A stretch of 64,000 nucleotides of DNA from Palleronia rufa (GTDB taxonomy: Bacteria; Pseudomonadota; Alphaproteobacteria; Rhodobacterales; Rhodobacteraceae), in contig NZ_JQEY01000001.1 of the NCBI RefSeq assembly GCF_000743715.1, positions 1-64,000 on the forward strand, given 5' to 3'. Each line of letters opens with the position of its first letter. Position 1 is the first letter of the stretch. Below are positions 3,573 through 59,692 of the stretch, piece by piece. A model generated the notes under the pieces. It saw only the letters and a program-made list of their open reading frames with translations, had not been told where the DNA came from and searched no databases. The position numbers were made by a program, and so were the translations under genes.

Positions 3573-5849
3573 ATGACAAAGCAACAAAAAATCACCCTCA
3601 GCGCCTCGCGCGACGTCCCCTTCAACAAGCTGATGCTCAGCCAGTCGAACGTGCGCCACGTCAAGGCGGGCGTGTCGATCGAGGAACTGGCCGAGGACAT
3701 CGCGCGGCGGACGCTGCTCAGCTCCATCACCGTGCGGCCCGTGCTGGACGACTGCGGCGCCGAGACCGGCATGTACTCGATCCCCGCCGGCGGGCGGCGG
3801 TTCCGGGCGCTCGAACTGCTCGTTAAGCAGAAGCGCATGAACAAGACAGCACTTGTCCCCTGCATCGTCCGCACCGATGGGCTCGCAGAAGAGGACAGCC
3901 TCGCCGAGAACGTCCAGCGTGCGCCGCTTCATCCGCTCGACCAGTTCCGTGCCTTCCAAGCGATGCGCGAGAAAGGTCGCACCGAGGAGGAGATCGCCGC
4001 AGCCTTCTTCGTCTCGGCCAGCGTGGTCAAGCAGCGGCTGAAGCTCGCCGCGGTCGCACCGTCGCTGCATGATGCCTATGCCGAGGAGGAAATGACGCTC
4101 GACCAGCTCATGGCCTTCACGGTCAACCCCGATCACGCGCGGCAGGAGCAGGTCTGGGAGGCGCTGCAGCGGCATTATTCGCGGCAGCCTTACGAGATCC
4201 GCCGCATGCTGACCGAGGGTGCGGTGCGGGCCTCGGACAAGCGGGCGCAGTTCGTCGGGCTCGACAACTATGTCGAGGCCGGGGGCGAGATCCTGCGCGA
4301 TCTGTTCCAGCAGGATGACGGCGGCTGGCTGCAGGATGCCGCCCTGCTCGACGTCATGGTGCGCGAGAAGCTCGCTGAAGAGGCCGAGGGGGTGCGTGCC
4401 GAGGGCTGGAAATGGGTCGAGGTCGATACCGAGTTCCCCTATGGCCATACCTTCGGGATGCGCCGGGTCAATGGCGAAGCGGTGCCGATGAGCGACGAGG
4501 AGGAGGCCCGCTACCAGGCGTTGAAGGCCGAATACGACGCGCTCGAGGCCGAGCATGCGGAAGCCGACGAACTGCCCGACGATGTCGATGCCCGGTTGGG
4601 CGAGATCGAGGAGGCGATGGAGGCACTCGAGGCGCGTCCGATCCGGTACGAGGCCGACGACCTCGCGCTGGCAGGAGCCTTCGTCAGCATCGACAACTCC
4701 GGGCGTCTGCGCGTCGAACGGGGCTACGTGCGGCCTGAGGATGAGCCGGTCGAGGAGGTGGAGGACCTCGGCGAGGTCGCACCGCAAGCGGCGCAGGTCG
4801 AGGACACCGACGACACTGTCGCGTCTATTGCGGACGACGAGGAAGAGGATGACGGCCTCAAACCGCTCTCCGACCGCCTCGTCATGGAACTGACGGCCCA
4901 TCGCACCCTGGCGCTGCGCAATGCGCTGGCCCAGGACCCGCAGGTCGCTTTCCTCGCAGCCCTGCACGCGATGGTCCTGCGGCTCTTCTACCGATACGCC
5001 GTCGACAGCTGCATCGAGATCGAACCGCGCAATGCCGCCTTCGGATCGCAGGTGCCGGGCCTCGGCGACACGGCCTACGCGCAGGCCATCGACCAGCGCC
5101 ACGAGACCTGGGCGGGGAACCTGCCGAAGGCACCCGAGGACCTCTGGGAGGCGCTGACCGAGTTCGACAGCTGCAGCCGCGAGGCGCTCTTCGCCCATTG
5201 CGTGGCGATGAGCGTGAATGCCGTCCACGACCCCTACCAGCGTCGCCCGCGCGCCATCGCGCATGCGGATGTGCTGGCCGGAACCGTCGGGCTCGACATG
5301 GCCAAGGCGGGCTGGACGGCCACGGGTGACAGCTACCTCGGTCGCGTGACCAAGCCCACACGTCCCGACATCGCCACCAACCTCGTCGTCAACACCGACC
5401 GGCGCACCTATCACATCGAGTTGCACGCGGACGCGGAGACCTGGATGCCCAGCGTTGCTTGGGCCTACCCGGAAGTGCGATCCACGCCACGCGCCCCGAT
5501 CCTCCGGCGTCCGGTGATCTCGCTCGAGGCCGATCGGCACTACCGCTACGGCCTGCAGGGCGACGCCCCGCCCTGGCGGCCGGTCTCGGTCTTCGACGAT
5601 GGACGGCGAGTCTATGTCGTCTTCCCGCCCGGCATCGCCCAAGGCGAAATGCCCCCGCTCTTCGTGATCGCCGCGGATGGGCGTGGCCAGATCGTGAACA
5701 CCCGCGTGCTCGGGAACGTGCTGATCGTCGATCGTCTGTTCGGCGCGGCGGAGCTGCGTCTCGGCGAAAGGCAGCAACAGGTCGTACGGATCGTAAGGAC
5801 GGATGGCATCCGACGTCAGCCGGGCGACCCCCGACCGGAGGCGGAGTGA
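3573..5849 (+). CDS. Chimeric ORF: ParB-like protein fused to C-terminal half of TrbG
   Basis: This 758-residue reading frame joins two unrelated families. Residues 1 to about 593 are a plasmid-type ParB/RepB/Spo0J protein, with a ParB nuclease-like segment (SIPAGGRRFRALELL, LAENVQRAPLHPLDQ), a KorB-like helix (FFVSASVVKQRLKLA) and the family tail ending DSYLGRVTK. From about residue 595 the sequence is TrbG/VirB9-type: PTRPDIATNLVV, TDRRTYHIEL, a VFPPG segment and the terminal QVVRIVR. The switch is at about 5346-5366. The N-terminal signal peptide and first half of TrbG are absent, so it cannot be exported as normal TrbG. The frame is uninterrupted, and the stop overlaps the trbI start. I interpret it as an in-frame deletion fusion. 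Confidence 0.85.
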   Translation: MTKQQKITLSASRDVPFNKLMLSQSNVRHVKAGVSIEELAEDIARRTLLSSITVRPVLDDCGAETGMYSIPAGGRRFRALELLVKQKRMNKTALVPCIVRTDGLAEEDSLAENVQRAPLHPLDQFRAFQAMREKGRTEEEIAAAFFVSASVVKQRLKLAAVAPSLHDAYAEEEMTLDQLMAFTVNPDHARQEQVWEALQRHYSRQPYEIRRMLTEGAVRASDKRAQFVGLDNYVEAGGEILRDLFQQDDGGWLQDAALLDVMVREKLAEEAEGVRAEGWKWVEVDTEFPYGHTFGMRRVNGEAVPMSDEEEARYQALKAEYDALEAEHAEADELPDDVDARLGEIEEAMEALEARPIRYEADDLALAGAFVSIDNSGRLRVERGYVRPEDEPVEEVEDLGEVAPQAAQVEDTDDTVASIADDEEEDDGLKPLSDRLVMELTAHRTLALRNALAQDPQVAFLAALHAMVLRLFYRYAVDSCIEIEPRNAAFGSQVPGLGDTAYAQAIDQRHETWAGNLPKAPEDLWEALTEFDSCSREALFAHCVAMSVNAVHDPYQRRPRAIAHADVLAGTVGLDMAKAGWTATGDSYLGRVTKPTRPDIATNLVVNTDRRTYHIELHADAETWMPSVAWAYPEVRSTPRAPILRRPVISLEADRHYRYGLQGDAPPWRPVSVFDDGRRVYVVFPPGIAQGEMPPLFVIAADGRGQIVNTRVLGNVLIVDRLFGAAELRLGERQQQVVRIVRTDGIRRQPGDPRPEAE

Positions 5850-7048
5850 TGACACACCCACCCGAAATGCCCGAGCGCCCAAGAAGCGAAGAGGACATCG
5901 CCCGCGAACTGCGCCTCAGACCCGACCCACCCCGCGTGATGCGTTTGTCCCGCCGGGCCATCGCGCTTGCAACGGCCGTCGGCGGGCTCGGAGTTGGCGC
6001 AATCCTGATCGTGGCGCTGCAGAGCAATCGCACGGACGGAACTCAGAGCGAGCTCTACTCCACGGAACGGATCCAGGCCGCCGAAGGGCCTACGACGCTC
6101 CCACGCGACTATGCCGATATCCCGCGTCTCGGACCGCCTCTGCCCGGTGAGCTTGGCCGCGCCATTCTCGGCGCTCAGGATCGGGGTCAGCCTGTGCCTG
6201 CTCCGCCGCTTGCGGGTCCGGTCCCGACGACCGTCGATCCGGACGAACAACGCAGACTTCAGGAGATCGAGGCCGCCCGCCTGAGCGCCCTCTTTGCCGA
6301 AGCGCAGACTGTGCCGCGTGGCGGCACGCCGCCAGTCCCGTCTCTGCCTGCGACCGGCGCGCTGTTTCCCACGAACCCGAATACCGGGGCGGCCAACGAC
6401 CCCGACTCGAGCCGGGAAACACTCCTCATGCGAACCGGAGACACGGAAACTGTGAGCGCTGAACGCATCACGGCACCGCCCTGTCCCTACATTCTGCAGG
6501 CCGGAACCGTCATCCCGGCTGCCTTGATCACCGGTCTTCGTTCCGACCTTCCCGGCCAGATCTCGGCGCAGGTGACGTCGAACGTCTATGGCAGTCCTTC
6601 GGGTCGCTACCTGCTGATCCCGCAAGGCGCTCGGCTTCTGGGGGAGTATGACAGCCGCATCGCGTCCGGGCAAAGCCGCCTGCTCCTCGTCTGGACCCGG
6701 CTCATCCTTCCGGATGGTCGCTCCCTTGTGCTGGAGCGCGCGCCCGGCACGGACGGAACCGGCGCGTCCGGCCTGCAGGACCGGGTAAACTACCATTGGG
6801 GTCGCGTCTTCCTGGCCGCAGGCCTCGCCACGATCCTGAACCTCGGCCTGGAGAGCAGAGCCGACAGCGCGGATGACGTCGCCCGCGCCATCCGCGAAGC
6901 CGCGCAAGACACGATCGGGCGGACCGGGGACGAGATCGTGCAACAGCAGCTCGCCGTCCCACCGACATTGACCATCCGCCCGGGCTTCCCCGTCCGCGTC
7001 ATGGTCACCCGCGACCTGATCCTCGAGCTTTTGGGAGAAGTGAAATGA
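5849..7048 (+). CDS. trbI: TrbI (VirB10-like) conjugal transfer protein
   Basis: This 399-residue protein belongs to the TrbI/VirB10 family, the inner-to-outer membrane spanning component of type IV mating-pair machines. It has a cytoplasmic N-terminus, one membrane segment at about residues 36-55 (IALATAVGGLGVGAILIVAL), a Pro-rich periplasmic stretch, and the conserved C-terminal domain with ILQAGTVIPAALITGLRSD, YLLIPQGARLLGEYDS and FPVRVMVTRDLIL. The ATG overlaps the upstream TrbG-derived stop, as in intact trb operons. The remaining trb genes (trbB-F, J, L) are absent, so a transfer apparatus cannot be built from this locus. Confidence 0.9.
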   Translation: MTHPPEMPERPRSEEDIARELRLRPDPPRVMRLSRRAIALATAVGGLGVGAILIVALQSNRTDGTQSELYSTERIQAAEGPTTLPRDYADIPRLGPPLPGELGRAILGAQDRGQPVPAPPLAGPVPTTVDPDEQRRLQEIEAARLSALFAEAQTVPRGGTPPVPSLPATGALFPTNPNTGAANDPDSSRETLLMRTGDTETVSAERITAPPCPYILQAGTVIPAALITGLRSDLPGQISAQVTSNVYGSPSGRYLLIPQGARLLGEYDSRIASGQSRLLLVWTRLILPDGRSLVLERAPGTDGTGASGLQDRVNYHWGRVFLAAGLATILNLGLESRADSADDVARAIREAAQDTIGRTGDEIVQQQLAVPPTLTIRPGFPVRVMVTRDLILELLGEVK

Positions 7049-7107
7049 AGAAGCTGAAGCTCGGCCCGATCCATGACGACAAGCCGGTCAAGCTGACTGT
7101 GGAGCTT
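7045..7107 (+). pseudogene. DUF2274 gene, first ~21 codons only
   Basis: An ATG at 7045 overlaps the trbI stop and encodes MKKLKLGPIHDDKPVKLTVEL, the recognisable beginning of the small DUF2274 protein that normally follows trbI. After about codon 21 the similarity ends and the sequence becomes the interior of a nitrate ABC-transporter ATPase in another frame. The open frame continues to 7377 with Arg/Gly-rich shadow residues. This is the right-hand boundary of the conjugative-element remnant. Confidence 0.75.
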
Positions 7108-7720
7108 GGGCGCGGACCCGGAGCGGGCCGTGGTGTTCCAGTCGCCCTCTCTCTTCCCCTGGCTGACGGCGCGCGAGAATTGCGCCGTGGGCGTGGACAA
7201 GGTCTATCCCCGCGCCTCCCGCGCCGAGCGGCAGGACGTGGTGGAATACTACCTCGAACGGGTGGGGCTTGCCGATGCGATGGACAAGCCCGCCGCGGAT
7301 CTCTCGAACGGCATGAAACAGCGCGTGGGCATCGCGCGGGCTTTCGCCCTGTCGCCCAAACTCCTGCTGCTGGATGAGCCGTTCGGGATGCTCGACAGCC
7401 TCACCCGGTGGGAGCTTCAAGAGGTGCTGATGGAGGTGTGGGATCGCACCAAGGTCACCGCCATCTGCGTCACACACGACGTGGACGAGGCCATCCTTCT
7501 GGCCGATCGCGTGGTGATGATGACCAACGGCCCGCAGGCCACGATCGGCAAGATCGTGGATGTGGACCTGCCGCGCCCGCGCTCTCGCAAGGCGCTGCTC
7601 GAACATCCCGACTACTACCTCTACCGCGAGCAGGTGCTGAACTTCCTTGAGGAATACGAGCACGGCGCGCGGCCCAGGACCCAACCCAAACCGGCCGACA
7701 AGGCCATTGCGGCGGAGTAA
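7106..7720 (+). pseudogene. Nitrate/nitrite ABC transporter ATPase (NrtD type), N-terminal part missing
   Basis: The fragment encodes the distal part of an ABC ATPase of the NrtD/TauB-SsuB group. It begins with the Q-loop region (ERAVVFQSPSLFPWLTA) and keeps the signature LSNGMKQRVGIARA, Walker B LLLLDEPFGMLD and the switch His in CVTHDVDEA. The Walker A loop and everything before it are gone, because 7107 is a junction with the DUF2274 gene. Without Walker A it cannot bind ATP properly, so uptake through this transporter is lost unless another ATPase serves. The substrate-binding and permease genes that normally precede it are also absent. The assignment to nitrate rests on the NirB, NirD and NasA genes that follow. 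Confidence 0.8.
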
Positions 7721-7725
7721 GGCCG

Positions 7726-8658
7726 ATGGATACCGTTCTGGAAACGTCGAAGACCTTTGTCGAGGTCGCAGAAATCTGGGTGCCCGAGGGCGACCGGCTG
7801 GTCCTGTCCGGCGGAGTCTACGGCGCCCATGCGAGCTTCGCCGAGGCGTCGCATCGCAAGAGCTTCGCCAAGGGCGAGGGCTTGCCCGGCAAGGCCTGGG
7901 CCGAGGCGCGGCCGGTCGTCCTCGAGCAATTCGACGGTTCGTATTTCAAGCGCACCGATGCGGCGAAGGAGGTCGGGCTGACCAGCGCCGTCGCGGTTCC
8001 GGTTTTCGCCGGAGCGACCCTGAAGGCGGTGCTGGTCGTGCTCTGCGCCGACGACGCCACGCGCACCGGCGCCATCGAGGTGTGGCAGGAAGCCGACGGC
8101 ATCCTGACCCTCGACGACGGGTACTACGGCGCGGCGAGCCATTTCGAATGGGTCAGCCAGCACACGCAATTCCCGCGCGGCCAGGGCCTGCCGGGGGGCG
8201 TCTGGTCCTCGAACACGCCGATCCTGATGCGCGACCTGGGCTCGGGCTACCGGTTCATCCGCTCCGAAAGCGCGGGACAGGCGGGGCTGACGACCGGCCT
8301 CGGGCTGCCGGTCCCGGTACCGGGCGACAAGACCTATGTCCTGACGCTGCTCTCGGCCAAGGGCACCCCCATCGCACGGCGCTTCGAGATCTGGGACGCG
8401 CGCGCCGCCAAGACAGGCCCGCGCGACACGGCGAAGCTGATCGACGGCATCTGCGAGCGCGGGGGCCCGCTCTGGGATCCAGACAACGCCGGAAACGAGC
8501 GCGTGGCCCACGCCTGGGAGGGGCCCATCGGCCGGGTCCTCGGCGCCGGCCTTCCGGTGGCCGAAACGGGGGCCGCCGCCGGCGCCTACGCGATGATGGT
8601 CGCCCTCCCGGTCCACAGGGGCGGCGAGCTCGCCCACGTGGTCGCCTGGTATTGCTGA
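7726..8658 (+). CDS. Tandem GAF-domain protein of the nitrate-assimilation cluster
   Basis: This is a 310-residue soluble protein with two GAF-like repeats, each marked by a Gly-Leu-Pro-Gly turn and Trp: GEGLPGKAWAEARPVV at about residues 50-65 and GQGLPGGVWSSNTPIL at about 152-167. GAF domains bind small ligands or nitrogen oxides. No output domain such as a kinase, cyclase or helix-turn-helix is present. It lies five bases after the ATPase fragment and 11 bases before nirB, so it is probably co-transcribed. A sensing or regulatory role in nitrate assimilation is inferred from position only. Confidence 0.75.
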   Translation: MDTVLETSKTFVEVAEIWVPEGDRLVLSGGVYGAHASFAEASHRKSFAKGEGLPGKAWAEARPVVLEQFDGSYFKRTDAAKEVGLTSAVAVPVFAGATLKAVLVVLCADDATRTGAIEVWQEADGILTLDDGYYGAASHFEWVSQHTQFPRGQGLPGGVWSSNTPILMRDLGSGYRFIRSESAGQAGLTTGLGLPVPVPGDKTYVLTLLSAKGTPIARRFEIWDARAAKTGPRDTAKLIDGICERGGPLWDPDNAGNERVAHAWEGPIGRVLGAGLPVAETGAAAGAYAMMVALPVHRGGELAHVVAWYC

Positions 8659-8669
8659 GGAGAGTGGAC

Positions 8670-11099
8670 ATGGAAAAACTGGTCGTCATCGGCGCGGGCA
8701 TGGCCTCGGGCCGTCTGCTGGAACATCTCTTCGAGGCCGATCCCGACCGCTTCGAGGTCACGCTGTTCAACGCCGAGCCGCGCGGCAACTACAACCGCAT
8801 CATGCTCTCGCCCGTGCTGTCGGGCGAGAAGAGCTATGCCGAGATCGTCACCCACGACGACGACTGGTACGCGGCGCATAACGTCACTTGCCGCTTCGGC
8901 GAGGCGGTCGAGCGGATCGACCGCCACCGCCGCGTCGTCGTCGGCGTCAACGGCGAAGTGTCCTATGACCGGCTTGTCATTGCCACCGGCTCGGCGCCCT
9001 TCATCGTCCCCTGCCCTGGCCACGATCTCGACGGCGTCATCGCCTATCGCGACCTCGACGACACCAACCGCATGATCGACACGGCGCCTGGCAGCCGTGC
9101 CGTGGTCATCGGTGGCGGTCTGCTGGGTCTGGAAGCCGCGGCCGGGCTGCGCTTGCGGGGCATGGAGGTCACGGTGCTGCACCTTGCCGGTCACCTGATG
9201 GAGCGCCAGCTCGACCCCGCCGCCGGATACCTTCTGAGCGCCGATCTGGAGCGGCGCGGCATCGCCGTGATGACCGAGGCCAGCACGAGGTGCATCCAGG
9301 GCACCGACGCCGTCGAGGCGGTGGAGCTGGAAAACGGCACGGTCCTGCCCGCCGATCTGGTGGTCATGGCGGTCGGCATCCGCCCGGCCGTGGCGTTGGC
9401 GAGAGAGGCCGGGCTGACGGTGAACCGCGCCATCGAGGTGGACGCGCAGATGCAGACCTCCGACCCGCACATCCTCGCGGTCGGCGAATGCGTGGAATTC
9501 GCGGGCCAGCTCTTCGGCCTCGTCGCGCCGCTCTACGATCAGGCCAAGGTGCTGGCAGCGACCCTGCTCGGCGAGCCTGCCGCCTTCGCGCCGAAGCAGC
9601 TCTCGACCAAACTGAAGGTCACCGGCTGCGATCTGTTCAGCGCGGGGGACTTCGCCGAAGGGCCGGGACGCGAGGATATCGTGTTCCGCGATCCGGCGCG
9701 CGGCATCTACAAGCGGCTGGTGGTCGAAGACGACCGGCTCGTCGGTGCGGTGATGTATGGTGACACGGCGGACGGCAACTGGTTCTTCGGCCTCATCAAG
9801 GATGGCACCGACGTGGCCGAGATGCGCGAGACGCTGATCTTCGGCCCCGCCTACCAGGGGGGGGCCGCGCAGGACCCTATGGCCGCCGTTGCAGCCTTGC
9901 CGGCTGACGCAGAGATCTGCGGCTGAAACGGCGTCTGCAAGGGGCAGATCATCGCCGCCATCGAGGGTGGCGCCACCGACCTCGGGACCGTGCGCGCCAC
10001 GACCAAGGCCAGCGCCTCCTGCGGGACCTGCACGGGCCTTGTCGAACAGATGCTCGCCGTCACGCTGGGCGATGCCTTTGCCATGCCTGCCGCGCAACCG
10101 ATCTGCGGCTGCACCGACCTCACCCATGAGGACGTGCGCCGTCTGATCAAGGCGCGAGAATTGAAGTCGCAACCGGCGGTCTGGCAGGAACTCGGCTGGC
10201 GCACGCCCAACGGCTGCCATGTCTGCCGCCCGGCGGTGAATTTCTACCTGCTGGCCGACGGGCCACTGGAATATCAGGACGACCCGCAAAGCCGCTTCGT
10301 CAACGAGCGCAAGCACGCCAACATTCAGAAGGACGGCACCTTCTCGGTCGTGCCGCGCATGTGGGGCGGGATCACCAGCGCGTCGGAGTTGCGCGCCATC
10401 GCCGACGCCGCAGAGAAATACGACGTCCCGACGGTCAAGGTCACCGGCGGTCAGCGCATCGACCTTCTGGGCGTCAAGGGCGAGGATCTGCCCGCCATGT
10501 GGGCCGACCTCAACGCCGCCGGTCTGGTGTCGGGCCACGCCTATTCAAAGGGCCTGCGCACCGTGAAAACCTGCGTGGGCACCGACCATTGCCGCTTCGG
10601 AACCCAGGATTCCACCGGCCTCGGCATCCGGCTCGAAAAGCGGCTCTGGGGATCGTGGACGCCCCACAAGGTCAAGCTCGCCGTGTCGGGCTGCCCCAGG
10701 AACTGCGCCGAGGCGACCTGCAAGGACGTCGGCATCGTCTGCGTGGATTCAGGCTACGAGATCGGCGTCGGCGGGGCCGCGGGCATGGACGTCAAGGAGG
10801 TCGAGCGCCTGGTGAAGGTCGCCACCGAGGGCGAGGCTGTCGAATGGACCGTCGCCTTCGTCCAGCTTTACCGCGAGCACGCGAGGTATCTCGACCGGCC
10901 CTACAAATGGCTCGGCAAGGTGGGGCTCGATTGGGTGAAAGAGACGCTCGGCGACGCCGCCACGCGCCGCGCGCTGGTCGAGCGCTTCGACCTGAGCCAG
11001 ACGATCTACCAGACCGATCCCTGGGCCGAACTGGCGGTGCGCGAGAAAGCCCGCGCCTTCGCCCCGATTGCCGACCTGACCCTGGAGGCCGCCCAATGA
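8670..11099 (+). pseudogene. nirB: Assimilatory nitrite reductase large subunit NirB/NasB, with in-frame TGA at 9924
   Basis: The reading frame spans 809 codons, a normal NirB length, but contains TGA at 9924-9926. The first part has the FAD/NAD(P)H fold (LVVIGAGMASGRLLE, VVIGGGLLGLEAAAGL). Next come two BFD-like [2Fe-2S] regions (ICG-TGA-NGVCKG with SCGTC, then ICGCTDLTHED with CHVC). The C-terminal sulfite/nitrite reductase domain keeps its siroheme-[4Fe-4S] cysteines in TCVGTDHCRFGTQDS and SGCPRNCAEATCKD. The TGA takes the place of the second Cys of the first BFD motif (normally CGCNG). Everything downstream still looks selected. The simplest reading is a TGC-to-TGA nonsense mutation; recoding as selenocysteine is possible but weakly supported. 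The start ATG follows GAGGAGAG. Confidence 0.85.
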
Positions 11100-11428
11100 G
11101 CTGGATCGACATCGGCGCGCTGGACGACATTCCCCTGCGCGGCGCGCGCATGGTCAAGACGCGCGCGGGCTGCGTGGCACTGTTCCGCACCGCCGAGGCG
11201 GAGATCTTCGCAACCTCCAATACCTGCGCACACAAGGGCGGCCCGCTGGCCGAGGGCATTGTCCACGGCCGCCGCGTGACCTGTCCGCTGCACAACTGGG
11301 TCTATTCACTGGAAACCGGAGAGGTGCAGGGGGCCGATGAGGGCCGCATCGCCACCTATCCCGTCCGCGTCGAGGAGGGCCGCGTCCTCATCGACGGCGA
11401 CGCCATCGGCAAGCGGAGCGCCGCGTGA
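11096..11428 (+). CDS. nirD: Nitrite reductase small subunit NirD (Rieske type)
   Basis: This 110-residue protein is the small subunit of NAD(P)H-dependent assimilatory nitrite reductase. It has a Rieske [2Fe-2S] fold with the cluster motifs CAHKGGPL and CPLHNW (Cys-x-His and Cys-x2-His). The ATG overlaps the nirB TGA (ATGA) and its own stop overlaps the nasA start, so translation is coupled. The reading frame is intact. Its use depends on whether full-length NirB is still made. Confidence 0.88.
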   Translation: MSWIDIGALDDIPLRGARMVKTRAGCVALFRTAEAEIFATSNTCAHKGGPLAEGIVHGRRVTCPLHNWVYSLETGEVQGADEGRIATYPVRVEEGRVLIDGDAIGKRSAA

Positions 11429-14277
11429 CCGCCATCCGCTCCACCTGCCCCTATTGCGGCGTGGGGTGCGGGGTGCTGCTGGCGCCCGATGGCACGGGTG
11501 GCCTCCAGGTGACGGGCGATCCGGACCACCCGGCGAACAAGGGGCGTCTCTGTTCGAAGGGATCGGCGCTTGCCGACACGCTGGGCCTTGACGGGCGGTT
11601 GCTCGCCCCGCGCATCGAGGGACAGGACACGGACTGGGACACCGCGCTTGACCTCGTCGCCGCCCGCTTCAGCGAAACCATCAAGACGCACGGCCCGGAC
11701 AGCGTGGCCTTCTACGCCTCCGGCCAGATGCTGACCGAGGATTACTACGTCGCCAACAAGTTCATGAAGGGCTTTGTCGGCACCGGGAATATCGACACCA
11801 ACTCGCGGCTCTGCATGGACTCGACCGTCGCGGGGCACAAGCGCGCCTTCGGCACCGACACCGTGCCCGGCACCTACGAGGATCTCGACGAGGCGGATCT
11901 TGTGGTGCTGGTCGGCTCGAACCTTGCGTGGTGTCACCCGATCCTGTATCAGCGCGTCCTCGCCGCGAAGGCCGCGCGGGGCACGAGGATCGTGGTGATC
12001 GACCCGCGCCGCACGGCGAGCTGCGACGGCGCGGATCTGCATCTGCCGCTCGCCATCGGCTCGGACGTGGCGCTGTTCAATCGGCTGTTGGTCGCGATCG
12101 TCGAAGCGGGCGCGCTCGACCCCGCTTATCTGGACCGGGTCGAGGGGCTGGAGGAGGCGTTCGCCGCCGCCCGGGCCGACAGCACCGATCCGACGGGCCT
12201 CACCCCCGACCTGATCCGGCACTTCTGCGACCTCTGGATCGGGACCGCACGCGTCGTGACCGTGTTCAGCCAAGGCGTGAACCAGTCGAGCAGCGGCACC
12301 GACAAAGTCAACGCCATCCTCAACTGCCACCTTGCCACGGGCCGGATCGGTCGGCCGGGAATGGGTCCGTTCAGCGTCACCGGTCAGCCGAATGCCATGG
12401 GCGGCCGCGAGGTCGGCGGGCTTGCCAACACGCTTGCCTGCCATCTCGACATCGAGAACCCGGCCCACCGCGCCGCCGTCGCCCATTTCTGGGACGCGCC
12501 GCGCCTCGCCACGCGGCCCGGCCTGAAGGCGGTGGAGATGTTCCGCGCCGTGGCCGGGGGACGGATCAAGGCGCTCTGGATCATGCACACGAACCCGGCG
12601 GCGACCCTTCCCGAGGCGGATGGGGTGCGCGCCGCCATCGCCGCCTGCGACTTCACCGTCGTCTCCGATGTGACGGCGGCGACCGACACCGCGCGGCTTG
12701 CGGACGTGCTGCTGCCCGCGGCCGCCTGGGCCGAAAAGAACGGCACGGTCACCAATTCCGACCGCACGATTTCGCGCCAGCGCGCCGCCCTGACCCCACC
12801 CGGATTGGCCCGGCCCGACTGGTGGCACATCGCAGAGGTCGCCCGCCGCTTGGGCTACGGACGCGCCTTCGACTACCACGGACCGCCAGAGATCTTCCGC
12901 GAACACGCCGCCCTGTCCGGCATCGCAGGCGGCTTCGGTCGCGATTTCGACATCTCGGGCCTCGCCGATCTTTCCGACAGCGCCTACGCCACGCTGCCCC
13001 CCACGCGCTGGCCGGTGGCCGCGAAACGCGGTGGACGGTTCTTCGCCGATGGCGGCTCGTTTCACGCGGACGCAAAGATGCGGATGGTGCCCGTGACCTG
13101 GCGCGCCCCTGCGGCGAAACATACGCCGCGCTTCCCGTTTCGCCTGAACACAGGCCGGGTGCGCGACCACTGGCACACGATGACGCGCACGGGGCGGTCG
13201 GCCCGCCTCTCGGCCCATCTGGCCGAACCCTTCGTCGAGATCCATCCGCAAGACGCCGCCGCGCTCCACGTCGCGCCCGACACGCTGGTCGAGCTGACAG
13301 CCCCCACGGGCCGCGCGATCCTGCGCGCCACCGTGACCGACGCGGTCCAGCCCGGCACATTCTTCGCGCCGATCCACTGGACCGCCGAGATGGCGCCCTC
13401 GGGCCGGATCGACGCGCTGGTCGCCGGGGCGACGGACCCGATCTCGGGCCAACCGGAATGCAAGGCCGCCGTCTGCGCCGCGCGCCCCTATCCCGCCGCC
13501 TGGTACGGCTTTGCCGTCTCCGCCGCGCCCCTGGCTCCGACATGCGGCTACTGGGCCGTCGCGCGCAGCGCGGGCGGCTGGCGCGCAGAACTCGCCGGCA
13601 CCGACAGCCCCGTAGATTGGGAGCAGGCCGCCCGCACCCTCTTCGACCTGCCCGAGGCCGAGGCGCAGGTGCTGAGCGACCCGGCGCGCGGCGTCACCCG
13701 GCTGGCGTTCCGCGAGGGCGGTCGCCTTGCCGCCGCCCTCTTCGTTGGACCGCGGCCTCTGGGCCTGATGCGCGACTACCTCACGACCTTGCCAGATACC
13801 GACACGCTGACGGGCCGAGCGCCCGCCGACCGGCCCGATCCCGGCCCGACACTGTGCTCCTGTTTCGGAATTGGCGTGAACACGATCCTCGCGGCTTGCG
13901 CGGCGGCGGCGGCCCTCGGGCGCGGGCTCACCTCCCGCGGCATGACGGATACCCTGGTGCTGACCACCGCGCGCCGTCAGAAGGACGGAGCGCTGGCCGA
14001 TGTGCCACGTCTCGCCAAGCGCGGCACCGAGCTTGCGATCTATATGGGGGTGTCGACCGCCGCCGATCTGGCTGCCGATCTCGTCGCAAGCGGCATGTCG
14101 CCTGACACGCGCGTGGAGGTCGTCGCGGACGCGTCGAAACGAGGCGAGACGGTGCTGCGCACGACGCTCGGAACGATGGCGCTTGCCATCCGAGAGGCCG
14201 AAATCAGCGGATGCGCTCTGATCCTGGTGACGAATCCGACGGCCGCCGACGTATCGGCACTTCGCGTCGCCTCGTAG
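11425..14277 (+). CDS. nasA: Assimilatory nitrate reductase NasA fused to C-terminal half of CobA/SUMT
   Basis: This 950-residue frame begins as NasA, the molybdopterin catalytic subunit that reduces nitrate to nitrite. It shows the [4Fe-4S] motif CPYCGVGCGV with a later RLCSKGSAL, and the Mo-ligand region NSRLCMDSTVAG, GTDKVNAI and the molydopterin-binding C-terminal part. At residues 811-820 the terminal BFD domain starts (CSCFGIGVNTI), but the second Cys pair never appears. From about residue 832 the sequence is the distal half of uroporphyrinogen-III C-methyltransferase: GLTSRGMTDTLVLTT, KDGALADVPRLA and ELAIYMGVST. The SUMT N-terminus with its SAM loop is missing. CobA/CysG commonly follows nasA, so a deletion that fused the two genes in frame is likely. 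The Mo domain appears intact. Confidence 0.85.
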   Translation: MTAIRSTCPYCGVGCGVLLAPDGTGGLQVTGDPDHPANKGRLCSKGSALADTLGLDGRLLAPRIEGQDTDWDTALDLVAARFSETIKTHGPDSVAFYASGQMLTEDYYVANKFMKGFVGTGNIDTNSRLCMDSTVAGHKRAFGTDTVPGTYEDLDEADLVVLVGSNLAWCHPILYQRVLAAKAARGTRIVVIDPRRTASCDGADLHLPLAIGSDVALFNRLLVAIVEAGALDPAYLDRVEGLEEAFAAARADSTDPTGLTPDLIRHFCDLWIGTARVVTVFSQGVNQSSSGTDKVNAILNCHLATGRIGRPGMGPFSVTGQPNAMGGREVGGLANTLACHLDIENPAHRAAVAHFWDAPRLATRPGLKAVEMFRAVAGGRIKALWIMHTNPAATLPEADGVRAAIAACDFTVVSDVTAATDTARLADVLLPAAAWAEKNGTVTNSDRTISRQRAALTPPGLARPDWWHIAEVARRLGYGRAFDYHGPPEIFREHAALSGIAGGFGRDFDISGLADLSDSAYATLPPTRWPVAAKRGGRFFADGGSFHADAKMRMVPVTWRAPAAKHTPRFPFRLNTGRVRDHWHTMTRTGRSARLSAHLAEPFVEIHPQDAAALHVAPDTLVELTAPTGRAILRATVTDAVQPGTFFAPIHWTAEMAPSGRIDALVAGATDPISGQPECKAAVCAARPYPAAWYGFAVSAAPLAPTCGYWAVARSAGGWRAELAGTDSPVDWEQAARTLFDLPEAEAQVLSDPARGVTRLAFREGGRLAAALFVGPRPLGLMRDYLTTLPDTDTLTGRAPADRPDPGPTLCSCFGIGVNTILAACAAAAALGRGLTSRGMTDTLVLTTARRQKDGALADVPRLAKRGTELAIYMGVSTAADLAADLVASGMSPDTRVEVVADASKRGETVLRTTLGTMALAIREAEISGCALILVTNPTAADVSALRVAS

Positions 14278-14679: not shown

Positions 14680-15127
14680 AAGGCGCCTTGCCAAGGTGCA
14701 GACAGCGGAGGGCAAGCTCCACCTTTTCGCCGGCATTAACCGGACGGCCCAGTTCGCGGTCGCCCAACGCGTTGCGACGGCGGCCCGAAAGACCGCACGC
14801 TCGGGGTTGTGTCCTGTCGGGTCCCTCACCGAAAACGGCAGTCCGTTCGCGGAGCGGCACCGAGCACCGGCCGACCAGGTCGGAATCCATGGACGAACGG
14901 CCGGGTCGGGCGAACGAACCGCACGATCGCGGAGGCCACGGTCGAGCGCCTCCGCCGACAGCCCCGATCGGCTGCGCCAGCACCTCGCGGACGTCCCGGC
15001 GCCCGACAACCTCGCCCGCCGAGGCAGGCCCCCGAACGGTCTCACGCCCAGCGGATACATCCGGACACCAGAGCCGGATCGATCTACCCCCGACCCGATC
15101 CACCGGATGTTGGGGCTAAACACCTAG
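14680..15127 (+). pseudogene. Decayed IS481-family transposase
   Basis: Pieces of an IS481 transposase core can be read in more than one frame. They are KVQTAEGKLHLFAGINRT (first catalytic Asp replaced, normally IDRT), LTENGSPFAE (normally LTDNG), PWTNGRVGRTNRTI (the catalytic Glu of the usual NGQVERMNRT is replaced by Gly), and the C-terminal LRQHLAD followed by PDPIHRMLGLNT before a stop at 15125-15127. Frame changes and substituted catalytic residues show it is dead. It marks an old insertion downstream of the nitrate genes. Confidence 0.75.
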
Positions 15128-15157
15128 AGGCGCGCCGGTCGAGGCACCGGAGGGAGG

Positions 15158-15462
15158 GCTTACCCGCGGCCGAGATCCGCCTAGCGATCCGACAGCGCTG
15201 CAAGATCGCGCTGAGATACAGCGATGGCGGCGGCGACCGGACCGATCGCGTCGTCTGGCCACTGCTCACCGGCTACCGCGATAAAGGCCGGATCGTCGCC
15301 GCCCTGTGCGAGCTGCGCGCGGGCTTTCTGTTACTTCCCGACCAAGCGGATCGCCGGCGGCACGGTCATCGACGCGCCGGATTGCCGGCGCATGGACCTG
15401 CTGCAACGGGAGTGGCAGGAGGCGATGGACGCCGAGCGCGACCGATATGAAGAGCGCGCCTG
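15158..15462 (+). pseudogene. WYL-domain regulator fragment with a frameshift
   Basis: The first part encodes IRLAIRQRCKIALRYSDGGG and RVVWPLLTGYRDKGRIV, typical of the WYL ligand-binding domain of YafY-like helix-turn-helix regulators. At about 15325-15345 the reading switches to the next frame (FCYFPTKRIAGGTV, then LLQREWQEAMDAERDRYEE), which is the expected continuation. The N-terminal DNA-binding half is missing and an IS481 remnant abuts it. It is a broken gene of unknown original target. Confidence 0.65.
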
Positions 15463-15469
15463 CTGTTCG

Positions 15470-16021
15470 TGTTCCAAACGTCTACCCAGTTTTAACCGAC
15501 CTTCGGGCGCGATGCAGCGAAAGTCCGGAAAATCCGCAGTCTTCAAGTCCGTTCGTGTACGCTTTTCGATGTGGATCGTCGGATCGCGGATAACCGCTTC
15601 CGGCCCGTCGCGACGTGCGTCGAGCGAGCGCCCACTTGAATTGCTGCGCCGGGTCCGAGGTCTGTTCAAAGCCCGTTGCCGACAAAGCAAATTCTCGCTG
15701 CGTGCGCTCGCAGCGGCATTTTTGTTGCGGCGCGACAAATCTTCATGCCGCATCGCAGTTGCGGATCCGCTCGTTCGAACGGTGCGCCGCGAAATTCTCG
15801 GGAGCAGCGGACCGCGGGCCAATCCGGGCTTTAGCAGCGCGATCGACGAACGGCCCGGCTGATCGTCACCTTATCGATGTCGCCATGTCTGTCGGGCAGT
15901 CCGTGTGTCTTCATCGGGTCTCTCCCATCCACTTGGATGTTGGACGGAGTATAGGGCGCCGCAATGCAAGAGGGGCGGCGCGGTTTTCCGCCCGCCCCCG
16001 CGTCGCCCCGTCCTGCCGCGC
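15470..16021. other. Non-coding or unrecognised stretch before the thiolase 3' end
   Basis: I recognise no protein family here. The DNA is slightly less GC-rich around 15540-15760. A minus-strand mini-frame of 27 codons starts at 15920 after GGGAGAGACCCG, but it has no family resemblance. GGGCGG at 15973-15978 can pair with CCGCCC at 15988-15993 and might act as a weak terminator hairpin for the thiolase gene, though no T-run follows. Confidence 0.4.
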
Positions 16022-17236
16022 TCAGCCCATCGCTTCGATCGCCACCGCCGTCGCTTCACCCCCGCCGATGCAGATCGAGGCGACGCCACGCCGTGCGCCC
16101 TGCGCACGCATCGCGCCCAGCAGCGTCACCATGATCCGCGCGCCAGAGGCCCCGATGGGATGGCCCAGCGCGACCGCGCCGCCATGGACGTTCAGCCGGT
16201 CGCGGTCGATGCCGATGTCGCGCATGGAAGCCATCGCCACGACCGCGAAGGCCTCGTTGATCTCGAACAGGTCCACGTCGTCGGCGGTCCATCCGATGCG
16301 CTCGAAGAGCGCGCGCTTGGCAAAGATCGGCGCGGTGGTGAACCAGCCCGGCGCTCCGGCGTGGGCGGCATGGCCGACGATCCGGGCAAGCGGCGCCAGG
16401 CCCAAGGCCTCTGCCCGAGAGGCCCGCGTGAGGACCAGCGCCGCGGCGCCGTCGTTGATGGACGAGGACGAGGCCGCCGTGATCGTGCCGTCCGGGGCGA
16501 ACGCCGGCCGCAGGCCGGGGATCTTTTCGGGGTCGATCCGCTGCGGGCCTTCGTCGGCGGCAATCTCCGTATCGCCCTTGCGGCCCCGCACCGTGACCGG
16601 CGCCATCTCCCAGTCGAAGGCGCCGCTCTCGGCGGCCCGCTTGGCGCGGGCGACGCTCTCGATGGCATAGGCGTCCTGGGCATCGCGGGTGAACTGGTAG
16701 TGCCGGGCGCAGTCCTCACCGAAGGTGCCCATGGAGCGGCGGGTACCGTCGGGGGCGATGTCGTAGGCGTCCTCCAACCCGTCCAGCATCATGTGGTCGA
16801 GCATCCGCCCGTGGCCGATCCGCGCGCCGGAGCGTCCCTCCGGCAGCAGGTAGGGTGCGTTGGTCATGCTCTCCATACCGCCCGCGACGACCACGCTGGC
16901 GGACCCGGCCGTGATCGCGTCATGGGCCTGGATGACCGCCTTCATGCCCGATCCGCAGACCTTGGACACGGTCGTGCACGGCACCGATTGCGGCAGACCC
17001 GCGCCCAGTGCGGCCTGCCGCGCGGGCGCCTGGCCCAGCCCGGCGGGCAGGACGTTGCCCATCAGCACCTCATCGACATGCTCCGGCGATAGCGCCGCCT
17101 GCTCCAGCGCGGCACCGATGGCCCGCGCGCCCAGTGCGGTCGCCGCAACGCCGCGGAACGCGCCCTGGAATGCGCCCAGCGGCGTGCGCCGCGCGGCGAC
17201 GATCACGATCGGATCGGAGGGGGTACTGGCGGCCAT
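16022..17236 (-). CDS. Acetyl-CoA acetyltransferase (thiolase)
   Basis: This 404-residue thiolase catalyses acetyl transfer between acyl-CoA molecules, either in beta-oxidation or in making acetoacetyl-CoA. The acyl-enzyme Cys lies in TTVSKVCGSGMKAV, the active-site His in NVHGGAVALGHPIGASGARI, and the second Cys in SICIGGGEATAV near the C-terminus. The length is normal. It is on the minus strand downstream of the TRAP transporter genes with a 52-base gap, so it could be co-transcribed with them. Whether it is biosynthetic or degradative cannot be decided from the sequence. Confidence 0.9.
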   Translation of the reverse strand: MAASTPSDPIVIVAARRTPLGAFQGAFRGVAATALGARAIGAALEQAALSPEHVDEVLMGNVLPAGLGQAPARQAALGAGLPQSVPCTTVSKVCGSGMKAVIQAHDAITAGSASVVVAGGMESMTNAPYLLPEGRSGARIGHGRMLDHMMLDGLEDAYDIAPDGTRRSMGTFGEDCARHYQFTRDAQDAYAIESVARAKRAAESGAFDWEMAPVTVRGRKGDTEIAADEGPQRIDPEKIPGLRPAFAPDGTITAASSSSINDGAAALVLTRASRAEALGLAPLARIVGHAAHAGAPGWFTTAPIFAKRALFERIGWTADDVDLFEINEAFAVVAMASMRDIGIDRDRLNVHGGAVALGHPIGASGARIMVTLLGAMRAQGARRGVASICIGGGEATAVAIEAMG

Positions 17237-29195: not shown

Positions 29196-29417
29196 TCAGA
29201 AGAAGAAGCGGTCGCGGTAGACGTGGCGGATGATCTGGTCGCGCGCGATCCCGCGACGGGCCAGTTCCGCGTCGGACATGTCCCGAAGCGCGTTGATCTC
29301 GCCGGTGCGCGCATGGGCTTCCATGAACGATTCCATCCAGGCGCCGAACTTGGCGCCCAGGTCGCGCAGCGGGCGGCGGGTCCGCGCGCGATCGTCGGAA
29401 TAGGTAAGCGATGCCAT
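29196..29417 (-). CDS. DUF1127 small protein inside the urease operon
   Basis: This is a 73-residue basic protein with the C-terminal DUF1127 motif: INALRDMSDAELARRGIARD followed by QIIRHVYRDRFFF. Proteins of this type are short and Arg-rich; some modulate RNA turnover or nutrient responses in related bacteria, but no role in urease maturation is known to me. It lies between ureC and ureE on the same strand, and its stop overlaps the ureE ribosome site, so it is translated with the operon. Confidence 0.85.
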   Translation of the reverse strand: MASLTYSDDRARTRRPLRDLGAKFGAWMESFMEAHARTGEINALRDMSDAELARRGIARDQIIRHVYRDRFFF

Positions 29418-29528
29418 GAGAGGCTCCTTCAACTCGCGTCTTCCTCCCTTGGCAGGACAGGTAAGGAACGCCGCGACGCAGCACCATGGCCGGATCCGCA
29501 TTGCCGGGTTGCATCGTGCTCATCCCTC

Positions 29529-31238
29529 TCAGAACAGGAAATATCGCTGCGCCATGGGCAGGACCTCTGCCGGCGCGCAGGTCAGAAGTTCCCCGTCGGC
29601 GCGGACCTCGTAGGTTTCGGGATCGACCTCGACCATGGGCAGCGCGTCGTTCAGGATCAGGTCCCGCTTGCCGATGCCGCGCGTACCGCGCACCGCCGCT
29701 ACGTCACGCGCAAGGCCCAGCGTGGCGCCGATCCCCGCGGCCTCGGCCGCCTGGCTCACGAAGGCCACCGCGGAACGTTCGACCGCCCGCCCCATGGCGC
29801 CGAACATCGGCCGCGAATAGACCGGCTGCGGCGTCGGGATCGAGGCATTGGGGTCGCCCATCTGCGCCACCGCGATGGACCCGCCCAGCAGCACCATCAT
29901 CGGCTTGACCCCGAAGAACGCTGGATCCCACAGCACCAGGTCGGCCCGCTTGCCCACCTCGACCGAGCCGATCTCATGGCTCATCCCGTGGGCGATCGCG
30001 GGGTTGATGGTGTATTTGGCAATGTAGCGGCGGACGCGCAGGTTGTCGTTGTCGCCGGTCTCGCCCGCCAGGCGGCCGCGCTGCTTTCGCATCTTGTCGG
30101 CGGTCTGCCAGGTGCGGATCAGCACCTCCCCCACCCGCCCCATCGCCTGGCTGTCGCTCGCGATGATCGAGAACGCGCCCATGTCGTGCAGGATGTCCTC
30201 GGCGGCGATGGTCTCGCGCCGGATCCGGCTCTCGGCGAAGGCGATATCCTCGGGGATGGATTTCGACAGATGATGGCAGACCATCAGCATGTCGAGATGC
30301 TCCTCGATCGTGTTCGCCGTGAAGGGCCGCGTCGGGTTGGTCGAGGACGGCAGCATATTGGCGTCGCCGCAGATCTTGATGATGTCGGGGGCATGGCCGC
30401 CGCCCGCCCCCTCGGTATGGAAGGCATGGATGGTGCGGCCCGCGATGGCGTCCACGGTGGACTCCACGAAGCCGCTCTCGTTCAGCGTGTCGGTGTGGAT
30501 CATCACCTGCACGTCCCAATCGTCCGCCACCGACAGGCAGCAGTCGATGGCGGCGGGCGTCGTTCCCCAATCCTCGTGCAATTTCAGCGCGCAGGCGCCG
30601 CCCTCGACCATCTCCACCAGCGCGTCGGGACGCGAGGCGTTGCCCTTGCCCGCCAGCCCGACGTTCATCGGCACGCCGTCCAGCGCCTGCAACATCCGCC
30701 CGATATGCCAAGGTCCCGGCGTGCAGGTGGTGGCGAGCGTTCCATGGGCCGGGCCGGTGCCGCCCCCCAGCATGGTGGTCACGCCGGAATGAAGCGCGTC
30801 CTCGATCTGCTGCGGGCAGATGAAATGAATGTGGCTGTCGAACGCGCCGGCGGTCAGGATCCGCCCTTCTCCGGCGATGATCTCCGTCCCCGGTCCGATG
30901 ACGATGTCAACGCCGGACTGGGTGTCGGGATTGCCGGCCTTGCCGATGCCGGCGATCCGCCCCTCTCGCAGGCCCACGTCCGCCTTGTAGATGCCGGAAT
31001 GATCCAGAATCAGCGCGTTGGTGATGACGGTGTCCATGGCGCCCTCAGCGCGCGAGGCTTGGGACTGTCCCATCCCGTCCCGGATCACCTTGCCGCCGCC
31101 GAACTTCACCTCTTCGCCGTAGCTGGTCAGGTCGCGCTCCACCTCCACGATCAAGTCGGTGTCGGCCAGCCGCAATCTGTCGCCGGTGGTGGGCCCGAAC
31201 ATCCCGGCGTAGTCTTGGCGTGATATGGTTGCGGGCAT
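29529..31238 (-). CDS. ureC: Urease alpha (catalytic) subunit UreC
   Basis: This 569-residue subunit, normal in length, hydrolyses urea at a dinickel centre. Metal ligands are seen in [12 protein letters not shown], the bridging carbamylated Lys in [11 protein letters not shown], and further His ligands in [13 protein letters not shown] and [16 protein letters not shown]. The mobile flap is [14 protein letters not shown] chose the ATG at 31238, which has a GGAGGGAC site; the frame upstream to 31289 has no similarity. It makes ammonia and carbamate for nitrogen supply. Confidence 0.95.
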
Positions 31239-57508: not shown

Positions 57509-59692
57509 ATGCTGACCCCCTCCCTGCCCCTGACCCGAGACATCGTGCTGATCGGCGGCGGTCACGCCCATGCGCTGGTGCTGCGGCGCTGGGGGATGGA
57601 TCCGCTGCCGGGCGCGCGGCTGACGGTCATCAATCCCGGCCCGACGGCGCCCTACACCGGGATGCTGCCGGGCTTCGTCGCCGGCCATTACGACCGCGAC
57701 ACGCTGGAGATCGACCTGGTGCGGCTGGCGCGCTTCGCCGGCGCGCGGCTGATCCTGGGACGGGCCACGGGGCTGGACCCGGCGGCGCGGGAAATCGCCA
57801 TCGACGACAGGCTGATCGGGGCGCGGCGGATCGGCTATGACGTGGCCTCGCTCGACATCGGGATCCATTCGCAGATGCCGGACCTGCCGGGCTTTTCCGA
57901 ACATGGCGTCGCCGCCAAGCCGCTGGGCCGGTTCGCGGCACGCTGGGCGGCGGTCCGGGATGGGGGTGACCCCATCGCGGTGATCGGCGGCGGGGTCGCC
58001 GGGGTGGAACTGGCGATGGCCATGCGCCACGGGACCTGCGGGCGGCCGGTGACGGTGATCGAGCGCGACCGGGCGCTGTCGGGACTGGGCCGCCGCGCCG
58101 CGGACCGGCTGCGGCGGGCGATGGCCGAAACGGGCGTGACGCTGATCGAGGGCGAGGAGGTGGCGCGACTGACGGCCCGCGCGGTGGTGCTGGCCGATGG
58201 GCGCGAGATCCCGGCCGGGTTCGTCACCGGCGCGGCCGGCGCGCGGCCCCACGGCTGGCTGGCCGAGACCGGGCTGCCGCTGCACCGGGGCTATGTGGCC
58301 GTGGACGAGACCCTTCGGACCGGCGATCCGGCGGTCTTCGCCGTGGGCGACTGCGCGCATCTGACCCACGCGCCGCGCCCCAAGGCCGGGGTCTTCGCCG
58401 TGCGCCAGGCGCCGGTCCTGCACGACAATCTGCGCGCGGCGGTCTCCGGCGGGCGGCTACGGCCCTACCGGCCCCAGAAGGATTACCTCAAGCTGATCTC
58501 CACGGGCGGCAGATCCGCCGTGGCCGACAAGTTCGGCCTGGCCTGGTCGGGGCCGTGGCTGTGGCGCTGGAAGGACCGGATCGACCGCCGGTTCATGGCG
58601 CGGCTGTCGGACCTTCCCGCGCCGCCCGCGCCCCGCCTGCCCGTCCCCCGGGCCGACGGGCTGGATGCCGCCGCGTTGCAGGCGCCCTGCGCGGGGTGCG
58701 GCGCCAAGGTCGGGCGCGGGGCGCTGGGGGCGGCCCTGTCGGGGCTGGCGCCGGCGGTCCGGAGGGACGTGGAGCGCGGCGCGGGCGACGATGCGGCGAT
58801 CCTGCGCATCGGCGGCGTCGGCCAAGTCCTGACCGTGGACACGCTGCGTGCCTTCACCCACGACCCCGGCCTGCTGGCCCATGTCGCCATACTGCACGCG
58901 TTGGGCGATTGTCTGGCCATGGGCGCCCGTCCGCAGGCCGTGCTCTCCTCGCTCACCCTGCCGCGCCTGTCGCCCCGTCTGGAGGCGCGCACCCTTGCCG
59001 AGATCCTGCGCGCGGCAGAGGCGGCGCTGGCGGACACGGGTGCGGCCATCGTCGGCGGGCACAGCGCCACGGGACCGGAGATGCAGCTGGGCTTCGCCGT
59101 CACCGGCCTTCTGGACGGCGCCCCGATCCAGCTGTCGGGGGCGCGGCCCGGCGACGCGCTGATCCTGACCAAGCCGCTGGGCACCGGCGTCGTCCTGGCC
59201 GCGGAGATGGCGCTGACCGCCACCGGGCCGGAGGTCGCGGCCGCGCTGGCCGCCATGGCGGCACCCCAGCGGGCGGCGGCGCGGGTCCTGGGCGACGCGC
59301 GCGCCATGACCGACGTGACCGGCTTCGGTCTGGCCGGGCATCTGATGGGGATCTGCGAGTCCTCCGGCGTCGCGGCGGAGATCGCGCTGGATCGCCTGCC
59401 GCTTCTGCCCGGTGCGGCGCGGCTGCTGCGCGCGGGCGTGCGCTCGACGCTCCACGCCGCCAACCGCGATGCGGTGCGGGTGGAGGGGGCGCAGGGGCCG
59501 CTGGCCGAGATCCTCTACGACCCGCAGACCGCGGGAGGCCTGCTTGCCGCGGTGGCGCCCGACGCGGCGGCGGCGATGCTGGCGGACCTGCCCGGCGCGG
59601 CCCGGATCGGGCGGATCGCCGACGGCCCCCCTGCCCTGCGGCTGACCGGCGGCGCGCCGCGTGAAGGCCCGCCAGAACGCGGACCGGAGTGA
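57509..59692 (+). CDS. selD: SelD selenophosphate synthase fused to N-terminal FAD oxidoreductase
   Basis: This 727-residue protein has two parts. Residues 1 to about 375 are a pyridine-nucleotide-disulfide-type FAD domain (DIVLIGGGHAHALVLRRWG, PIAVIGGGVAGVELAMAM, FAVGDCAHL). Residues about 385-727 are SelD, which makes selenophosphate from selenide and ATP. The catalytic Cys/Lys are in APCAGCGAKVG, then GDDAAILRI, ILHALGDCLAMGARPQ, GGHSATGPEMQLGF and TDVTGFGLAGHLMG. The Cys is an ordinary codon, not TGA. The usual partner (selU/mnmH or selAB) is not next to it; an IS630 lies 98 bases downstream. It shows the cell handles selenium, either for selenouridine in tRNA or for selenoproteins. Confidence 0.9.
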   Translation: MLTPSLPLTRDIVLIGGGHAHALVLRRWGMDPLPGARLTVINPGPTAPYTGMLPGFVAGHYDRDTLEIDLVRLARFAGARLILGRATGLDPAAREIAIDDRLIGARRIGYDVASLDIGIHSQMPDLPGFSEHGVAAKPLGRFAARWAAVRDGGDPIAVIGGGVAGVELAMAMRHGTCGRPVTVIERDRALSGLGRRAADRLRRAMAETGVTLIEGEEVARLTARAVVLADGREIPAGFVTGAAGARPHGWLAETGLPLHRGYVAVDETLRTGDPAVFAVGDCAHLTHAPRPKAGVFAVRQAPVLHDNLRAAVSGGRLRPYRPQKDYLKLISTGGRSAVADKFGLAWSGPWLWRWKDRIDRRFMARLSDLPAPPAPRLPVPRADGLDAAALQAPCAGCGAKVGRGALGAALSGLAPAVRRDVERGAGDDAAILRIGGVGQVLTVDTLRAFTHDPGLLAHVAILHALGDCLAMGARPQAVLSSLTLPRLSPRLEARTLAEILRAAEAALADTGAAIVGGHSATGPEMQLGFAVTGLLDGAPIQLSGARPGDALILTKPLGTGVVLAAEMALTATGPEVAAALAAMAAPQRAAARVLGDARAMTDVTGFGLAGHLMGICESSGVAAEIALDRLPLLPGAARLLRAGVRSTLHAANRDAVRVEGAQGPLAEILYDPQTAGGLLAAVAPDAAAAMLADLPGAARIGRIADGPPALRLTGGAPREGPPERGPE

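Follow-up and report, generated by a model that had tools for sequence, protein, structure and literature searches.

The nirB frame and its neighbours

The 64,000-nucleotide stretch of Palleronia rufa DNA analysed here (the window; contig NZ_JQEY01000001.1) carries, in the midst of genes for nitrate assimilation, a gene for the large subunit of assimilatory nitrite reductase which is interrupted by a single internal stop codon. The locus contains the following features:

7107..7720, + strand: remnant of an ABC transporter ATPase gene that lacks its 5' end, putatively nrtC
7726..8658, + strand: open gene for the GAF-domain protein of the cluster (Pfam GAF_2)
8670..11099, + strand: probable pseudogene of nirB, for the large subunit of assimilatory nitrite reductase, an 809-codon frame with one internal stop, both halves matching TIGR02374
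9924..9926, + strand: in-frame TGA, codon 419, in place of an invariant Cys in the [2Fe-2S] domain Fer2_BFD
11096..11428, + strand: nirD, small subunit, open (TIGR02378 above cut-off)
11425..14277, + strand: in-frame nasA'-cysG' fusion of 950 aa, joined at about 13889/13890 (from Pfam domains and homology to the congener locus L131)

The first-pass annotation of this DNA had described the NirB frame as intact except for a TGA at the second Cys of the BFD motif, with the sequence remaining NirB downstream, and both the frame and the profile matches confirm this. The ATG at 8670 is in frame with the TGA, which stands in the context ICG-(TGA)-NGVCKG, and after codon 419 the frame still reads as NirB up to the terminal TGA at 11097-11099. 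The part before the stop matches positions 1-421 of the 794 in the TIGR02374 profile with 420 bits and the part after it positions 423-790 with 394 bits, either half alone falling below the whole-protein cut-off of 578, and Pfam Fer2_BFD is matched above its cut-off across the stop, with one TGA inside the match. Fourteen of the 20 Cys positions of NirB, codon 419 included, are invariant across the 86 relatives described below, and 13 of these 14 are Cys in the window gene, codon 419 being the exception. Among the six matches to NirB in the genome there was no second full-length copy.

Both flanks of nirB in the nitrate-assimilation operon are damaged, as had been claimed for the nitrate genes there. 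On the 5' side, homology to four of the six congener loci starts at 7107-7108, inside the ABC ATPase gene, and against the remaining two loci it starts further in, at 7774 and 8676. The ORF of the conjugation gene trbI ends at 7048 and is followed by the start of another short ORF, after which comes the junction at 7107. The ABC ATPase fragment is putatively nrtC, a name taken from its translation and not from a family search, and the genes upstream in L131 (response-regulator-like, nitrate-binding-like, nrtA and nrtB) were likewise named by reading their translations, with no family search. A protein search with the L131 nrtA gave no match in this genome, while among the 13 congeners five have close copies (88-100%), one of them being the genome from which the query came. 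One congener, G013, has an nrtA match of only 34% and yet an open nirB, which indicates that a missing nrtA is not enough by itself to make nirB useless. The GAF gene is 84-90% identical in four congener loci and 73% identical in a fifth.

On the 3' side, nasA homology ends at 13889-13895, and at window positions 13890-13895 the aligned part of L131 changes from 14935 to 17048, the window being without about 2.1 kb that stands between the nasA and cysG homology in L131. In the fusion protein the nitrate reductase NasA has lost the latter half of its Cys-rich tail and continues into CysG, of whose 470 residues about the last 129 are present; this piece, roughly the last quarter of the siroheme synthase CysG, was aligned by blastn to L131 only among the six congener loci. 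A tblastx search of the flanks gave mostly short weak matches, and only the ORF list was used.

Two further observations concern other parts of the window. In a 758-aa ORF (3573-5849, + strand) the N-terminus is weakly ParB-like (Pfam ParB_N at residues 16-115, under the cut-off, as were the NCBIfam ParB models) and the C-terminus resembles TrbG/VirB9 (Pfam CagX above the cut-off, residues 593-743), which looks as if a partition gene were fused to a conjugation gene. The Rfam family 5_ureB_sRNA (RF02514) is matched with 120.8 bits at 30798-31085 on the + strand, within a 666-aa ORF (29223-31223).

Codon 419 in relatives and constraint on nirB

Among the 13 congeners searched, six carry nirB (77-93% protein identity over the whole length), in every case without any stop, and the other seven gave no full-length match. 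These six together with the 80 best named loci of 585 (genome contigs) make up the set of 86 relatives; by their titles the 80 loci are mostly Rhodobacteraceae, Roseivivax, Salipiger, Leisingera and Paracoccus among them. All 86 relatives have a Cys codon at the position of codon 419 and none has TGA, in a set for which one of the six selecting peptide patterns spans this codon and would favour Cys there, with no such overlap for the remaining five. A separate family search with an 82-residue query in 295 genomes gave 127 matches in 123 genomes, and the only stop-bearing one was this genome's own. The check for TGA at this position in NirB homologues, which had been proposed with the first-pass annotation, is therefore negative for all 86 relatives and for the 126 other family matches, two sets which may have species in common.

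Values of dN/dS were obtained against four of the six nirB-bearing congeners, which are distant (dS 0.5-0.7). Over the whole gene they were 0.089-0.129 for the window against the four and 0.086-0.132 among the congeners themselves. Before the stop the pairs with the window are slightly higher (0.100-0.170 versus 0.068-0.129 among congeners), and after it they are not (0.073-0.112 versus 0.077-0.136). The other 86 sequences have 277 invariant columns, from which the window gene departs only at codon 419; when each of the 86 relatives was left out in turn, it showed 0-3 private changes (median 0). Neither whole-gene dN/dS nor the invariant columns (1/277 changed) thus give any sign of relaxed constraint in the rest of nirB, as is to be expected if the inactivation is very recent, and nirD, the GAF gene and the retained part of nasA are all open. 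Little was gained from dating the loss of nirB by dN/dS, given the distance of the congeners.

Because codon 419 is the sole departure at the 277 invariant columns, the stop is either very recent or a base-call error. The main rival to a real mutation is a base-call or consensus error, by which the nirB of the strain would have no stop and the TGA would exist only in the draft assembly. In its favour are the single base concerned in an otherwise perfect NirB, the draft state of the assembly (33 contigs) and the fact that no second assembly of the species was found, the nearest plasmid record being 84% identical (very near records may be missing). Against this, the two junctions at which the operon was cut independently make a real inactivating mutation plausible, and we consider such an error unlikely. 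The dN/dS and invariant-column tests fit a recent stop and a base-call error alike and cannot tell them apart.

It might seem that a TGA falling on a Cys calls for a special cause. With column 419 excluded, there are 39 single-base changes in nirB that lead to TGA, 19 of them at Cys codons, so that, if all changes are equally likely, a TGA lands on a Cys with about even chance. A special cause for the site was therefore rejected, as none is needed.

Selenocysteine machinery, tRNAs and the hairpin

Two features of the window bear on a possible recoding of the stop:

9930..9956, + strand: weak hairpin 3' of the TGA, with no evidence of function
57509..59692, + strand: oxidoreductase-SelD fusion (TIGR03169 and TIGR00476 above cut-off)

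According to one explanation the UGA is recoded as selenocysteine (Sec) at the [2Fe-2S] ligand through SelABC. The TGA is placed exactly on a functional Cys, a hairpin lies 3' of it and SelD is present. In addition, other (2Fe-2S)-binding proteins and ferredoxin-like proteins with Sec are tabulated in a 2026 review of prokaryotic selenoproteins, and the idea of Sec in an Fe-S protein is therefore not far-fetched as such; in the accessible part of its main text, however, neither NirB nor nitrite reductase appears (PMC13188914). NirB is likewise absent from the accessible part of PMC9312934, and the non-specific, selC-independent incorporation of Sec described in the portion of PMC3636253 that was available takes place at Cys codons, not at UGA. 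In a literature search on Sec with NirB or UGA the NirB phrase occurred in none of the matches listed, and a search on Roseivivax with nitrate assimilation found no papers.

The genome is a draft of 33 contigs with a completeness of 99.94, and within the limits of this draft selA, selB and selC, for which the first-pass annotation had advised looking, were not found. The selA model TIGR00474 had no match in it (controls: matches in 4 of 14, E. coli included, one above the cut-off). The SelB model TIGR00475 had nine matches, none above the cut-off (controls: matches in all 14, two above the cut-off), and the two best of them, an equal pair, are taken to be EF-Tu. For the SelB wing domain PF09107 there was no match in the genome, E. 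coli being the sole match among the 14 controls. The tRNA-Sec model RF01852 gave 11 matches, with 150 of 722 first-look candidates scored, and ARAGORN classes every one of the 11 as an ordinary tRNA; the one above the gathering score is a tRNA-Ser by ARAGORN and is assigned to RF00005 by Rfam (controls: matches in 14 of 14, above the cut-off in five). A second stop-bearing match in the SelB search, L008, was located at the end of an open 235-aa ORF, and we read it as a GTPase gene followed beyond its own stop and not as a second case of recoding.

It was correctly noticed before that selD is within the window. The SelD domain scores 266.7 bits with TIGR00476 against a cut-off of 125, and it sits behind a pyridine nucleotide-disulfide oxidoreductase domain; the fusion also matches TIGR04369 (fusion_not_SelD), under the cut-off. 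Elsewhere in the genome selU was found above its cut-off (G000:C1:662316-663212). This gene can account for the SelD of the window, and for that reason SelD was rejected as a sign of Sec. This is in accordance with the description of SelD plus YbbB, in the part of PMC1794560 seen, as a selenouridine trait separate from Sec decoding.

As to the hairpin TCTGC/GCAGA previously reported after the TGA, the stem is present but its stability is not beyond chance. The 45-base stretch 9921-9965 folds with -14.7 kcal/mol (z -0.83), and 38 of 200 shuffles were equally or more stable. At the same place in the relatives, where the codon is Cys, a fold of at least this stability was obtained in 13 of 86, and only one has all five pairs of the stem; Rfam showed no family at gathering score over the hairpin region. 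The hairpin was thus rejected as a SECIS. With the machinery not found and no TGA in any of the relatives examined, selenocysteine at codon 419 was rejected as well, and we regard it as scarcely credible.

The pristine frame downstream of the stop could also be put down to a useful readthrough of UGA, by a suppressor or near-cognate tRNA, which would yield some full-length NirB. The anticodon TCA, however, is present in none of the 40 tRNAs listed (an incomplete list, with no Tyr tRNA and none typed Ile), on which ground a suppressor tRNA was rejected. Other genes of the pathway are cut and the terminator of nirB is itself a TGA, which makes useful readthrough very improbable. If UGA 419 were decoded as Cys (or Sec) independently of selA and selB, for example by near-cognate reading, full-length NirB with its [2Fe-2S] cluster would still be made, and this too is hardly to be believed. 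Taken together, any recoding of UGA 419 has at most a very small probability.

The stop in a damaged operon

From these results we conclude that nirB has very probably suffered a recent nonsense mutation within a decaying nitrate-assimilation operon. The first-pass annotation had favoured a nonsense mutation over recoding, and that preference is supported by the search of the 33-contig draft, in which the decoding machinery was not found, and by the absence of TGA from the relatives examined. Translation would stop after 418 residues and leave an FAD/NAD(P)H half that lacks both an entire [2Fe-2S] domain and the siroheme/4Fe-4S half, and from the stop and the domains beyond it we infer that NirBD is probably inactive. 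The operon is also cut by the 5' truncation in the putative nrtC and by the deletion that joins nasA to the end of cysG; with the pathway crippled in this way, a stop in nirB may have been close to neutral. What counts against a nonsense mutation is that the rest of NirB is pristine and the gene shows hardly any decay, a picture that would equally result from a base-call error; the open state of nirD, the GAF gene and the retained part of nasA, and the open nirB of G013, count against it as well.

It is suggested, and only suggested, that the strain has lost nitrate and nitrite assimilation, which would be an ordinary kind of gene loss. Where a TGA falls on a metal-ligand Cys, three cheap checks should come before recoding is proposed: whether the genome has the Sec machinery, what relatives carry at the site, and in what state the operon is.

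In comparison with bacterial genes for UGA-encoded selenoproteins, the window nirB is similar in having an in-frame UGA where homologues have Cys, and it differs in that the decoding machinery was not found, the relatives examined are without the UGA and no SECIS is supported; of what characterizes such genes SelD was found here, and SelA, SelB, tRNA-Sec, a SECIS above chance and a UGA common to relatives were not. As is characteristic of a NirB pseudogene, the frame is interrupted with loss of essential domains, and the pathway is otherwise damaged, at the locus and in that nrtA was not found. Compared with NirB as modelled by TIGR02374, the two halves of the frame together span nearly the whole model, with 13 of the 14 invariant cysteines kept, and the difference lies in the internal stop, which removes the siroheme half.
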